Part shown: in pieces, positions 8,192 through 35,457 of the stretch
Layout: every line of letters starts with the position of its first letter
Position numbering within the stretch: position 1 is the first letter of the stretch
NCBI GenBank assembly: GCA_937948985.1
Contig: CALFAK010000066.1
Coordinates: forward strand, 1 to 64,000
DNA length: 64,000 nucleotides
DNA from: an uncultured Neomegalonema sp.
Lineage (GTDB): Bacteria; Pseudomonadota; Alphaproteobacteria; Rhodobacterales; Rhodobacteraceae
Reading direction: 5' to 3'
Program-made: the position numbers and the translations under genes
Notes under the pieces: model-generated
The model's database searches: none
Told to the model about the DNA's origin: nothing
The model's input: the letters and a program-made list of their open reading frames with translations, nothing else

Positions 8192-9043
8192 ATGCGCTTG
8201 TCGATTATTGCCGCTGCGGCGGCCCTTTCTTTTGCCTCATCAACCGCATTTGCGGCGGGGTCGATCGGCCCTTCCGCCGGCTCGCAGACTGAGACATGGG
8301 GCGAGCTGCGCGAAGAAATTTACGGGGATCGTGAGATCGTCAAAGCTCCAGAGGGACTGCTCAATCTGGAAGTTCCCTACCGTGCCACAAACGATACCCG
8401 TGTCCCCGTTTCGGCTTCGGCGACGTTTAAGGATGGGCGGACGATTAAATCGATGACGCTGATCATCGATGAGAACCCGATGCCCGTATCCGCCGATTTT
8501 GCCATGAACAGCCCGCAGACGGCGTTCACCACCAGCGTTGCGATGCGCCTGAACGGCCCGTCTAATGTACGGGCGGTTGTTGAGACGGATGATGGCGATC
8601 TTTACATGACATCGGCGTTTGTGAAGACCGCCGGACAAGGCGCATGTGCGGCCCCGCCCACAACGGGTGTTGAGGAAGCGTTGGCATCGCTCGGGCAGAT
8701 GGACCTGAAAGGGTTCGGGATGCCCAAAAGCGCGTTGGAACGCTTGAAGCAAGCGGATGAGGCGGAAAGCAATCAGGTTCAGCTTGAGCTCAAACACCCG
8801 CAACATTCGGGTATGCAGATGGATCAAATCTCGCTGCTGTACATCCCCGCCCGCTATGTCGAGACGCTGGAGGCATGGCATGATGATGAAAAGCTGTTCA
8901 CGATGACAGGCAGCATCTCACTCAGCGAGGACCCGTCGGTGTCGTTTGATTTGCCGGACAGCGGTGTGCAGCGGGTTCGTGTTCGCATGACCGATACGGA
9001 TGAGGCGATGTTTGAGAAGATTTTCGAGTTGGGCGGAGCTTAG
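8192..9043 (+). CDS. Quinoprotein dehydrogenase-associated SoxYZ-like carrier protein
   Basis: 283 residues with a signal peptide (cleavage near residue 22). An N-terminal SoxY-like domain (about 35-155) is fused to a C-terminal SoxZ-like domain (about 190-280). In true SoxY a conserved C-terminal GGCGG arm carries sulfur intermediates; here the equivalent is an internal GQGACAAP with a single cysteine, C152, at the domain junction. Such SoxYZ fusions are known next to PQQ-dependent alcohol dehydrogenases, where their role is unresolved. It is transcribed towards the xoxJ-side genes and ends 73 bp from the CXXCW gene. GGGAAAG precedes the ATG. No other sox gene is present. Confidence 0.85.
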   Translation: MRLSIIAAAAALSFASSTAFAAGSIGPSAGSQTETWGELREEIYGDREIVKAPEGLLNLEVPYRATNDTRVPVSASATFKDGRTIKSMTLIIDENPMPVSADFAMNSPQTAFTTSVAMRLNGPSNVRAVVETDDGDLYMTSAFVKTAGQGACAAPPTTGVEEALASLGQMDLKGFGMPKSALERLKQADEAESNQVQLELKHPQHSGMQMDQISLLYIPARYVETLEAWHDDEKLFTMTGSISLSEDPSVSFDLPDSGVQRVRVRMTDTDEAMFEKIFELGGA

Positions 9044-30330: not shown

Positions 30331-30465
30331 GGTACTAAAAATGTATAATTCTGCATTTTATTGATAACTCCAAACTATACATCGAACATAAAAAATGCCG
30401 AAAGATATTTCTGCTAGTTTTCTTCCCAACGCAACAGAAAAAAATTGTTGCAAGGGGAGTATTCG

Positions 30466-31026
30466 ATGAAAAAGCCGACATTTTTATCCTTTCTAACGTA
30501 CGCCAGAAAGTTTCGCAAAAAACGCGACGGCGTCGTGGCAATCGAGTTTGCCTTTGTCATCGCACCATTTCTGGCGATCACGCTGGGCACATTGGAGGTA
30601 GCCGTCGTTCACCTGATGCGCTCTTCCGTTTCCAACGCCGTAGAGGGCGCTTCTCGTCCGATCTATACCGGCTCCGCAGGCTGTGCAACGGTCGAAACGG
30701 TCAAAACCGAGATCTGCAATCGCATCGCCATGCAGAACGAGCAAAACTGTCAGGCAAATCTGAGAGTCATCCTCGAAGAACTCTCAGATTTCAGCGGACA
30801 GCGCCAAGACGTGGACGGTGACTTCGATCAGATCAATGATTTCGTCGATCCCGGCGAGTCAGAGTCGATCATGCTGCTGCGCACCTTTTACCGTTGGAAC
30901 ATCATGTTCCCGTTTTTGAGCGAAGCGCTTGGCGGGGAGAAGGGTGAAATCATCCTTGGTTCTAACACCGCGTTCAAGAACGAACCATTCGGATCGAATA
31001 CAGGCTGCACCGGAGGAGGGACATAA
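30466..31026 (+). CDS. TadE-like pilus assembly protein
   Basis: 186 residues from ATG 30466, which follows AAGGGGAG. A basic N-terminus (RKFRKKRDG) leads into VVAIEFAFVIAPFLAITLGTLEVAVV, the TadE signature: a glutamate inside a prepilin-like hydrophobic segment. The remaining 125 residues are periplasmic with several cysteines. TadE-type pseudopilins act with the Flp/Tad secretion system in adhesion. No tadA, flp, cpaB or rcpA gene is near. Overlaps the next gene by one base (TAATG). Confidence 0.8.
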   Translation: MKKPTFLSFLTYARKFRKKRDGVVAIEFAFVIAPFLAITLGTLEVAVVHLMRSSVSNAVEGASRPIYTGSAGCATVETVKTEICNRIAMQNEQNCQANLRVILEELSDFSGQRQDVDGDFDQINDFVDPGESESIMLLRTFYRWNIMFPFLSEALGGEKGEIILGSNTAFKNEPFGSNTGCTGGGT

Positions 31027-31649
31027 TGGTCATGCGCAACCAGTTCAAAAAATTCCGCAAAGACGAGCAAGGCCTCGCCGCTGTGGAATTCGCAATCATC
31101 GCCCCTCTATTGGCGTTGTTCCTGCTCGGCACAACAACCGCAACGCAAAGCATCTGGGCCAATGGTAAAGTGAACCAATCGGCCAGTGTCATCGGTGACT
31201 TGGTATCGCAGGAAACCACATTGACTGACCTTAATTTCGGACAGATCATGGACGCGGCTCCTGTGTTGTTGGAACCGTTCCCGCAATCAGATCTGCGCGT
31301 AACGGTTACCGCGTCCATTGCCTGTGACAAGTCGACAAACCCAAACAATCCTGACATCGAGTACTTTGTCATGTGGTCGCAAAGCTGGACTGATGGGAAC
31401 GTCGTCGCAGGTCCGCAAAACCCCGGACAGAAGCTCGACGGCGCTCCTGAAGAAATTAAGATCGCCGACGGGGACTACATCATCAAAACGGTGAGTGAAT
31501 ACACGCACACCCCGACCATCGGGCAGCAGGTTGATGCTTCGATTTCAATGGGTGAAACCGCGTTCCACCAACCGCGTGAAAGCGATCCTGTATCGTATCC
31601 GACGAAAGAGTCACCGCAATATCAGAATTGCGATGATATGCTTAACTAA
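31026..31649 (+). CDS. TadE/TadF-like pilus assembly protein
   Basis: 207 residues. Same design as its neighbour: basic start (KKFRKDEQG), then LAAVEFAIIAPLLALFLLGTT with the conserved Glu, then a periplasmic domain of about 160 residues. It is probably the TadF or second TadE pseudopilin partner. GGAGGGA overlaps the end of the previous gene, and the stop/start overlap TAATG couples the two. The gene pair is isolated from other tad genes. Confidence 0.78.
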   Translation: MVMRNQFKKFRKDEQGLAAVEFAIIAPLLALFLLGTTTATQSIWANGKVNQSASVIGDLVSQETTLTDLNFGQIMDAAPVLLEPFPQSDLRVTVTASIACDKSTNPNNPDIEYFVMWSQSWTDGNVVAGPQNPGQKLDGAPEEIKIADGDYIIKTVSEYTHTPTIGQQVDASISMGETAFHQPRESDPVSYPTKESPQYQNCDDMLN

Positions 31650-33444: not shown

Positions 33445-33648
33445 ATGTCAGTCGCACGCGTAACCGAGATCACCGCCACCTCGAAAAAAGGCTTCGACGA
33501 TGCCGTCAGAAAAGGGATTGAGCGCGCATCCAAGACACTGAAAAACGTCGAGGGCGCTTGGGTTCAAGATCAAAAAGTCATTCTTGAGAACGGCAAGATC
33601 AAGAAGTACATGGTCAGCCTGAAAATCACGTTCGTGCTGAACGACTAA
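33445..33648 (+). CDS. Dodecin family flavin-binding protein
   Basis: 67 residues, typical dodecin length. Pattern: VTEITATSKKGFDDAVRKGIERASKTLKNVEGAWVQ, with the conserved Trp (W39 region) that stacks on flavin and the Gln that follows. Dodecins form hollow dodecamers that store or buffer FMN/riboflavin. AGGAGA precedes the ATG by 6 nt. A strong terminator follows, so it is a stand-alone unit. Confidence 0.92.
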   Translation: MSVARVTEITATSKKGFDDAVRKGIERASKTLKNVEGAWVQDQKVILENGKIKKYMVSLKITFVLND

Positions 33649-33660
33649 GCATTACACTGT

Positions 33661-33690
33661 GATACCGCGACTTGTCGCGGTATCCATTTT
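33661..33690 (+). terminator. Terminator of the dodecin gene
   Basis: GATACCGCGA-CTTG-TCGCGGTATC is a perfect 10-bp stem with a 4-nt loop, followed by CATTTTT, 12 bp after the stop. A second hairpin (CCGCGAT-CAA-ATCGCGG, 33715-33731) lies just before the convergent SCO gene and may end its transcripts. Confidence 0.9.
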
Positions 33691-33745: not shown

Positions 33746-34300
33746 TCACTCTTTCAAATATTTGACCGCGATTTCGGCCATCCGTTCGGCCCCCAGAATC
33801 GGTGGCATCAGGCTGACGGTCTCGCCTTGCGCATCCAGCAGATAGACAAAGCTGCCATGCGCGTAGATCGGCCCTTCAATATCTTCAGCGATTTGCTCAC
33901 TTTCAACGCGATAGGCCTTTCGCGCCGCCGCCAACGAATCCTCTGACCCGGTCAATGCGATCATCTGAGGATGCATATCCGGTGCCGCCTCACGCAGCGC
34001 ATCGGGAGTATCCCGTGCAGGGTCGACCGTGATCAACACGGGTCGCACTTCAAGCCCTTGTTCCGCAAGCAAGTCCACCGTATCCGCCATACGTGGCACA
34101 ACAACCGAGCATATCGCCTGACACTGTGCATAACCAAAGAACAACAGTGACGGCGTGCCCTTCAAGCTCTCATCCGTCTGCGTTTTGCCATGCTGGTCGA
34201 TCAGCTCAAACGGCCCGCCCACCTTGAAAGGTAAGGGCGAACCCGCCATCGCTGCGCTGGCCATCGCCGTAATGCCCAAAGCAAGAATAATCCGGCGCAT
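33746..34300 (-). CDS. SCO1/SenC family protein (copper-binding thioredoxin fold)
   Basis: 184 residues with signal peptide (cleavage after AMA near 19). Thioredoxin-like fold with copper/redox cysteines C60 and C64 (CQAIC) and the distant histidine H147 (YAHGSF), the three ligands of Sco proteins. The usual proline after the second cysteine is replaced by Ser. Sco proteins deliver Cu to the CuA site of cytochrome oxidase, or reduce thiols. Its start shares one base with the stop of the upstream cysteine-rich protein gene (TGATG), making it the last gene of a three-gene operon. Confidence 0.88.
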   Translation of the reverse strand: MRRIILALGITAMASAAMAGSPLPFKVGGPFELIDQHGKTQTDESLKGTPSLLFFGYAQCQAICSVVVPRMADTVDLLAEQGLEVRPVLITVDPARDTPDALREAAPDMHPQMIALTGSEDSLAAARKAYRVESEQIAEDIEGPIYAHGSFVYLLDAQGETVSLMPPILGAERMAEIAVKYLKE

Positions 34301-34875
34301 CAATAATTGTCCTTGATGAACACGATATCCTCATCCGGTCCCAGACCAAGATAGCCACCCTCATCAATTTCCTCTTTGACGCGCGGATCACGACGGAACC
34401 ACGGGCCTTTACCCTTGGCATCGGGGTTTTTCTTGGCCCAATCTTTGGTCCATTTATTGGCTTTTTTCCACTCGCCGCCTTCCGCGCGAATCCACTGCAC
34501 CTGATACAGCTGCGCAGCCCCTTTCAGCGTTTCCTCATCGCCCACAAGCCAGCCGCGCACATCAATGGTTTTGCCGCAATGGGGTGCCAGATCGGCTACC
34601 GCGCCGTTGAAGGTGCTTTGCAGGTTCTTTTGCGGATAGACCAGCTTGCCGTTATCGGTGCGTAACAAGCCCAACTGACGCTTGCCATCGCCACAATTAG
34701 CGGGGCAATTTCCGGCAACTTCACAAAGAATATCAACGACTTTAGCACTAAAGCACGCCTTTTGCTGGCCAGAGAGATTCCAGCTCTTCGCTTCGCACTC
34801 CTCTGCGGCAGAAGCCGATGCCGATAAAAAGAAAGGCGCGGCGACAAGGGCCGCAATTATTGCAAGACTTCTCAT
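34300..34875 (-). CDS. Cysteine-rich secreted hypothetical protein
   Basis: 191 residues with a signal peptide (to about 24). The mature part has seven cysteines in the order CEAK, KACF, ILCEVAGNCPANCGDG, HCGKT, followed by a basic/Trp-rich C-terminal third (WKKANKWTKDWAKKNPDAKGKGPWFRRD). The cysteine pattern suggests a disulfide-bonded or metal-binding periplasmic protein. I do not recognise the family. It is coupled to the SCO gene by a one-base overlap and sits 2 nt after the stop of another secreted protein gene. Confidence 0.7.
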   Translation of the reverse strand: MRSLAIIAALVAAPFFLSASASAAEECEAKSWNLSGQQKACFSAKVVDILCEVAGNCPANCGDGKRQLGLLRTDNGKLVYPQKNLQSTFNGAVADLAPHCGKTIDVRGWLVGDEETLKGAAQLYQVQWIRAEGGEWKKANKWTKDWAKKNPDAKGKGPWFRRDPRVKEEIDEGGYLGLGPDEDIVFIKDNY

Positions 34876-34877
34876 GA

Positions 34878-35351
34878 CTATTCTACCGTTACCGCTTTGA
34901 TTTTCTTTTTCGGAATAGCGAAACCGGGGATCACGCCGTAATCTTCGTGCGTAAGGTTCGCAACACCGTCATTTGAGATCACTTCAGATACCACAAGGTA
35001 TTTCAAGCCATCACGCTCATACATCATGCCCTCGGCATTGATGGTGTCGTTTGTCAACTCCACAAAAGTATCGCCACCGGCGGAATTGTCATCGTCGGGC
35101 AGCTTGAGGACCATATAAACTTCACCGTCCTCGCCAAGTAGACCAACAGGAATACCCCCTGCAGCACACCAAAGTGCGCAAGTGTGATGCGCCGACCCGG
35201 TTACAGCCTCAGGCCCGCCCATGACGCCGGAGAAATAACACCATGTGTCAATCAACTCGCCTTTGATCTCGATTCTTTTGCCTTCAGACGCCAAGGCGAT
35301 ACCCGGCAACAAAGCCAGCCCCAACGCCAAAACCCTTGTTAATCCCGACAT
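34878..35351 (-). CDS. Secreted hypothetical protein with conserved cysteines
   Basis: 157 residues from ATG 35351, which follows GGAGGAAG; an earlier GTG (35372) would lengthen the signal region and is less likely. After the signal peptide (cleavage near ALA, 21) comes KGELIDTWCYFSGVMGG, then HHTCALWCAAGGIPVGLLGEDGEVYMVL. The Cys, His-His-x-Cys and Cys residues could bind a metal or heme-like cofactor. Similar short exported proteins with a C(x)nCAxxC-GxPxGLL pattern occur widely without a known function. It heads the operon with the cysteine-rich protein and SCO. Confidence 0.7.
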   Translation of the reverse strand: MSGLTRVLALGLALLPGIALASEGKRIEIKGELIDTWCYFSGVMGGPEAVTGSAHHTCALWCAAGGIPVGLLGEDGEVYMVLKLPDDDNSAGGDTFVELTNDTINAEGMMYERDGLKYLVVSEVISNDGVANLTHEDYGVIPGFAIPKKKIKAVTVE

Positions 35352-35457
35352 GTGCTTCCTCCATCTGTTCACTCTCAGGATGCACAGGCGCGGCAGGATG
35401 TCACATCACGTTTTCACGAAGCTTGAGAAATCGCCGTACGCGGCATAGGGATCGCGC

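Follow-up and report, generated by a model that had tools for sequence, protein, structure and literature searches.

The exported proteins encoded by genes A and B and the SCO1/SenC-type protein encoded directly behind them belong to a genuine and conserved SCO-linked operon, the function of which we infer with some confidence. The genes lie in the window, the 64,000-nucleotide stretch of an uncultured Neomegalonema sp. (Rhodobacteraceae; contig CALFAK010000066.1) that was analysed. The order A-B-SCO was found in 102 of 112 distinct loci, and the linkage is an evolutionarily kept unit, beyond chance. We tentatively favour the view that the trio forms an independent system for handling a metal in the periplasm, copper being the likeliest, in which the SCO protein serves A and B and the client is something other than cytochrome oxidase. 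SCO proteins are known mainly for the assembly of cytochrome oxidase, with few other clients, and the trio offers a compact pair of likely new SCO clients, genetically tied to a conserved SCO protein.

Organization of the locus

The tight coupling noted in the sequence-only reading, a 2-nt gap between A and B followed by a one-base overlap between B and the SCO gene (TGATG), was recovered in the ORF analysis of the window (Table 1). By eye, all three N-termini resemble export signals (A ...ALA-S, B ...ASA-A, SCO ...AMA-G). A crude hydrophobicity test at the genome_contigs loci was passed by 80/80 A, 78/79 B and 51/77 SCO proteins, the last figure needing caution because the SCO start codons are uncertain. 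Literature searches yielded no description of A or B.

Table 1. Features of the A-B-SCO locus, in window coordinates
Feature	Position	Strand	Description
gene A	34878..35351	-	exported 157-aa protein, predicted OB-fold-like; ATG at 35351; based on ORF, conservation and predicted fold
gene B	34300..34875	-	exported 191-aa protein; ATG at 34875, stop TGA 34300-34302; predicted OB-fold-like domain and helical C-terminal part
SCO1/SenC-type gene	33746..34300	-	184 aa; ATG at 34300; C60-x3-C64 and H148; PF02630 match
AAAACGTGATGTGACA	35399..35414	-	upstream of gene A; common to close relatives

Conservation of the A-B-SCO linkage

A survey of gene neighbourhoods showed that the homologues do co-occur with SCO genes, as the proposed coupling implied. 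The 112 distinct loci remained after 7 repeats of one A sequence had been taken from 119 loci; besides the 102 with A-B-SCO (L035, L078 and L080 being counted on tblastn order), nine have A-B and one has A only. Three of the ten loci without the full trio (L061, L087, L104) run off contig ends, and the other seven contain A-B without a recognised SCO gene: six from families far from that of the window, and L027.

Within the family sample (149 genomes, 148 genera) B is present in 19 genomes, and a broad A-domain profile finds A adjoining B in the same 19; the trio is therefore a patchy trait. In the 18 family genomes other than that of the window A adjoins B in 18/18 and an SCO gene follows B in 17/18. 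The exception, L027, has no recognised SCO gene after B; weak SCO-like matches (best E 5e-7, relaxed search) were seen on its reverse complement at about 8321-8830, between B and an esterase gene, so that a decayed or misread SCO gene is possible there.

When genome_contigs was scanned with A, the best 80 of 265 relatives included 77 A-B-SCO loci, a selection in which close relatives are over-represented, and the other three stop at a contig end. At the genome_contigs loci the A-B gaps range from -10 to 20 nt, and B and the SCO gene overlap at 42/77 junctions as called with uncertain start codons. The 16 far loci, from families other than f1, comprise 10 with A-B-SCO and six with A-B, all six from f80 and f81; L249, from a further family, was counted with the non-far loci. 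At class level the A profile matches 22/385 genomes, 7 of the 22 weakly, through a domain shared with membrane proteins. At phylum level it matches 9/398 genomes and the broad profile 11/398, all of them in the class of the window. A plasmid search with A gave nothing new, and a scan of viral_contigs with A7 gave no match.

Families, conserved residues and predicted folds of A and B

Neither A nor B reaches the cut-off of any Pfam or NCBIfam family, and no membership of a known, unrelated family was found for either, in agreement with their initial description as proteins of unassigned function. The nearest match of A was YggL, at E 0.18 and far under its cut-off, and up to E 1 neither protein matched COX2 (PF00116).

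The Cys and His patterns that had been picked out from the sequence are indeed near-invariant across 112 A and 111 B proteins; "cysteine-rich" is too strong a term, since A has 3 Cys residues, all near-invariant, and B has 6, four of them near-invariant. In window numbering, the 112 distinct A proteins retain C38 (110), M44 (111), H55 (112), H56 (111), C58 (112), C62 (112) and H135 (110), with C58 and C62 forming a CxxxC pair. In B, residues C51, C57 and C61 are kept in 111/111 proteins and C100 in 110/111, the pair here being C57xxxC61.

The predicted models are of moderate confidence (pLDDT 78 for A and 85 for B). For both proteins the Foldseek and VIA-align lists are headed by OB-folds, with no Foldseek match at E 0.001 or better and nothing above Z 8. 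The best structural matches in VIA-align (A: Z 6.6, 3.4 A, 81 residues; B: Z 6.0, 2.2 A, 65 residues) back the general fold only, and we lean towards the predicted assignment of A and B as OB-fold-like. For A the VIA-align list shows OB-folds, although such a list may miss a cupredoxin fold. The A model places C38, H55, H56, C58 and C62 on a pair of helices that sits between strands 1 and 2.

A and B are probably paralogues, judging from profile-profile alignment. The hhalign comparisons of A with B gave 70.6% (E 3.9e-5) and 89.9% (E 1.7e-6), and that of a broader A profile with B gave 94.3% (E 1e-7), the last two with the signal peptides in the alignment; C38, C58 and C62 of A are placed opposite C51, C57 and C61 of B. 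In hmmsearch with B profiles, A scored E 0.98 to 2.3, no better than shuffled decoys, and relatives of A were likewise not singled out. No convincing relative turned up among PDB sequences with the A, B or broad A-domain profiles; a match of the B profile to a designed beta-trefoil (E 0.0018), aligned over the Trp-rich C-terminal part, was taken as chance.

The SCO protein

The third gene had been read as an SCO gene, and PF02630 confirms this at 137.8 bits against a cut-off of 22.8 (E 2.9e-40). SCO proteins are described as CysXXXCys-Xn-His copper binders that can act as thiol-disulfide oxidoreductases and have the CuA site as best-known target (available text of PMC6696091; PMC9145763). The trio SCO retains all three copper ligands, the CxxxC in 102/102 and the His in 100/102 loci (C60, C64 and H148 in the window), and is a predicted copper binder. 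A C-terminal PP-x-L is conserved as well. The best solved-structure match of the trio SCO profile is the Blr1131 protein (4wbj, E 4e-36), in which the residue preceding the His is Asp, whereas it is Ala in the window SCO. Family, CxxxC and His are shared with the SCO1/SenC/PrrC chaperones, but the trio SCO stands in a clade of its own and is coupled to A and B rather than to oxidase genes.

This clade was seen in a tree of 55 SCO proteins: 29 trio SCOs (from the window, the family genomes and selected genome_contigs loci), 20 other SCOs and six trio SCOs from other families. L210, L211, L215 and L219 are absent from it, no SCO having been called there (4/20 new stretches) though the PF02630 survey of the family sample lists one in them. 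A branch of length 1.23 with 100/100 support splits the 29 trio SCOs from the 20 other and the six far-family SCOs, and the trio SCOs of the Rhodobacterales are thus a clade of their own. They are not on the same side as the other Rhodobacterales SCOs, which we take to be PrrC-like from their kinase neighbour. The six far-family trio SCOs group together (95/92) on the side of the other SCOs, and A-B is therefore coupled to SCOs of two kinds. Three trio SCOs from bins labelled Kiloniellales (L090, L107, L118) fall inside the Rhodobacterales clade, either because the gene was transferred or because the contigs were binned wrongly.

The A domain in other settings

The weak A matches fall in a membrane protein of ~260 aa, on its C-terminal domain, which is presumably periplasmic. 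This membrane protein adjoins a protein in which a Rieske domain is fused to a heme domain of ferric-reductase-like (MsrQ-like) type. Thirteen loci of this Rieske type were opened (six of eight weak class-level matches, two of five Rhizobium plasmids and five broad-profile matches); the Rieske protein was found in 13/13 and a thiamine-pyrophosphate enzyme in 7/13. In these modules (L241-L245, L155-L160, L221, L223) the TPP enzyme is either Rieske-fused or separate, and a protein of about 536 aa, L243-like, occurs in 4/13. CopD lies beside the Rieske-type protein on one of the two Rhizobium plasmids opened.

A stand-alone, secreted, His-tailed A-like protein is encoded on plasmid pPSMK1 of Phycisphaera mikurensis (L224, 16911-17396). 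It is 31% identical to A (E 1e-9; profile E 2e-9, against 0.28 or worse for decoys), and its gene adjoins genes for a DUF2231 and a Rieske protein. The surrounding copper-resistance cluster contains a multicopper oxidase, copper resistance protein B, RND efflux parts, a P-type ATPase, a four-helix bundle copper-binding protein and a metal-sensitive regulator. Searching plasmids and phages with this A-like protein added no new case. The copper link outside the SCO protein consists of this one cluster and the one CopD neighbour. Across the three contexts the C-H-C-C set is invariant in 12/12 aligned A-domain proteins, with the motif C-x(n)-G-x2-H-x2-C-[AG]-x2-C-x2-[GT]-G-[IV]-P. The A domain thereby connects operons of alphaproteobacteria with Rieske/heme-b modules and with one copper-resistance cluster or more.

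Surrounding genes and alternative functions

The genes outside the trio are common within lineages and different between lineages. Recurrent housekeeping neighbours, presumably acs, maeB, NAD kinase and opgGH, were set aside as system members, being shared synteny within lineages. Genes that we take to be opgH- and opgG-like occur near 22 and 21 of 103 trio loci, and genes that we likewise take to be OpgC-like near 8/103; none of these is near the trio of the window. All counts over the 103 loci still contain repeats of one locus. In L248 (5632-9999) a presumably TPP-enzyme-like gene, a presumably OpgC-like gene, A, B and the SCO gene form one apparent operon.

The main rival to the copper reading is a metal-free relay of thiol-disulfide or sulfane-sulfur groups, in which the SCO protein would be a thioredoxin-like reductase with A and B as its substrates or carriers, a nearby rhodanese being included; we regard it as possible but unlikely. 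A rhodanese gene was found in the surrounding stretch of 28/103 trio loci and in 0/22 control loci, the latter being shorter stretches around other SCOs (0.18 Mb in total against 1.23 Mb for the trio loci). PrrC, an SCO protein, reportedly has thiol-disulfide oxidoreductase activity, going by the title of the report. Nevertheless, no rhodanese was matched in 15 kb at the trio of the window, and since the gene mostly tracks the opgH/opgG-like block its place near the trio may be an inherited position. A metal, rather than a relay of thiols, is also favoured by the His and Met residues conserved in A and by the ligand His of the SCO protein.

It is improbable, in our view, that A and B help the SCO protein to build the CuA or CuB site of some oxidase. 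Such auxiliary assembly would be in line with the established function of the SCO family, and the available text of PMC9145763 describes two SCO proteins with overlapping oxidase-assembly roles in Paracoccus denitrificans. The distribution speaks against it, as B occurs in only 19/149 genomes of the family sample and SCO (PF02630) in 143/149. The early observation that no cytochrome oxidase genes are near also holds for COX2, the subunit that was searched: the sole COX2 match of the window genome (completeness 94.67%) sits on another contig, C80. Moreover, the trio SCO clade is separate and on a long branch, and the genome has another SCO. Its SCO matches lie on contigs C34, C66 and, weakly, C36, the weak third one reading as a TlpA-like thioredoxin. 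Other SCOs stand beside a kinase gene, RegB-like by our assumption, in 12/17 stretches with another SCO called, the C34 copy included.

Least probable of these rivals is a role of A and B in another pathway, such as glucan or envelope modification, as envelope proteins with structural zinc or disulfide bonds that the SCO protein only folds: opgH/opgG-like genes near about a fifth of the 103 loci, the 8/103 with an OpgC-like gene and the apparent operon of L248 would fit, but such neighbours are missing in most loci and at the trio of the window, the SCO protein retains its three copper ligands and an A domain lies within the Phycisphaera copper cluster.

Across the 149 genomes, uncorrected for ancestry, the trio is associated with SBP56 (14/19 against 38/130 genomes without the trio, p 0.0004) and with the longer, Rieske-type A-domain protein (9/19 against 5/130, p 2e-6), and shows no association with the CuA enzyme NosZ above cut-off (5/19 against 37/130, p 1). 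The label "Rieske type" stands here for an A-domain match in a long frame, the Rieske neighbour itself having been viewed in 1/14 genomes (G055, L244), and the count leaves out a weak fragment of G075 (E 7e-4) with an internal stop.

A copper-handling model and known systems

In the copper reading that we tentatively favour, A and B would be small exported periplasmic metal proteins, each with a site built on its CxxxC pair: in A this would be Cys3-His, supplemented by one Met and two further His, and in B a set of four Cys. The SCO protein would maintain the CxxxC pair of A, of B or of both in the reduced state and deliver copper to it or remove it, as SCO proteins do at the CuA CxxxC. A and B, perhaps paired, would then pass copper (or electrons) to a client other than cytochrome oxidase. 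Copper as the metal, the action of the SCO protein on A and B, their pairing and the client are what we infer. CuA, the best-known SCO target, carries a CxxxC, as do A and B, and in the simplest reading the two proteins are served by their own SCO or work together with it.

Several results argue for this copper set: the A-B-SCO order in 102/112 loci with its tight spacing; the tie of A-B to two separate SCO groups in different alphaproteobacterial families, for which six far-family SCOs stood in the tree; the near-invariant Cys and His residues of the SCO protein, A and B; the C-H-C-C set shared by A domains, one bearer of which sits in the Phycisphaera copper-resistance cluster; and the SCO genes that also adjoin non-oxidase copper enzymes (mtoX, iox). 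It is weakened by the Phycisphaera cluster being a single case, by the lack of a copper-regulator palindrome and of an association with NosZ, by the 6/16 far loci and L027 with A-B and no recognised SCO, and by the moderate pLDDT values, the lack of Foldseek matches at E 0.001 and a kinship of A and B that is seen by profile-profile comparison alone. From the letters of the DNA it had been proposed that the set may be a metal-delivery or periplasmic thiol system; the kept trio, the distinct SCO clade, the conserved Cys and His residues and the absence of family matches at cut-off bear this out in part, the handling of copper or thiols being predicted.

The CuA site of COX2 and N2OR consists of a CxxxC pair together with His and Met. 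CxxxC, His and Met are thus found in both CuA and A, and CuA is a known SCO target; the CuA domain, however, is a cupredoxin, whereas A and B are predicted to be OB-fold-like barrels and have no Pfam COX2 match. CusF and SilF, chaperones of Cu/Ag, are small periplasmic OB-fold proteins, as is predicted for A and B, and SilF is among the structural matches to B (Z 4.5, 2.7 A, 66 residues). No sequence kinship with them was found, and the candidate Cys-based ligands of A are in the helices between strands 1 and 2, whereas the ligands of CusF are His, Met and Trp, placed elsewhere.

The available text of PMC5739008 describes an mtoX-SCO1/SenC-mauG operon for methanethiol oxidase, in which the SCO gene lies beside a non-oxidase periplasmic copper protein. 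As in the trio, an SCO gene is found beside a periplasmic protein outside cytochrome oxidase, the copper role of A and B being predicted. The trio differs in having no SBP56 gene, and A and B match no SBP56 model; the one SBP56 match of the window genome is on contig C178, not beside any of its SCO matches, and no MauG was recognised by eye beside the trio SCO. The iox cluster for iodide oxidase combines three SCO-like proteins with a non-oxidase copper enzyme, as far as described in the available text of PMC9415286. It shares with the trio an SCO context outside cytochrome oxidase; no multicopper oxidase was seen by eye in the ORF list beside the trio of the window.

It is improbable that A and B pair as an OB-fold heterodimer whose CxxxC/His/Met site mimics CuA and is assembled by its own SCO, and so represent a kind of copper redox protein new to the periplasm. 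If so, the A domain of the membrane protein beside the Rieske/heme-b reductase would draw electrons from the cytoplasm.

Upstream element and flanking features

A simple search for exact dyads detected no copper-regulator palindrome upstream. Among 98 further loci, 11 (10 different places) carry the element GTGATGTGACA in the 150 nt preceding A, where it starts 56-76 nt ahead of the gene. Together with the looser form [AC]GTGAT it occurs in 33/98 loci, a count that still includes repeats, and the looser form was present in 63/1000 random control stretches.

Rfam gave nothing at gathering scores within the window. Beyond the SCO gene lies a small gene (33447-33648) which we assume to encode a dodecin-like protein, then a terminator-like hairpin at 33661-33684. 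Further along, at 30445-31649, two tandem ORFs are presumably TadE/TadG-like pilus-assembly genes, judged from the look of their sequences.
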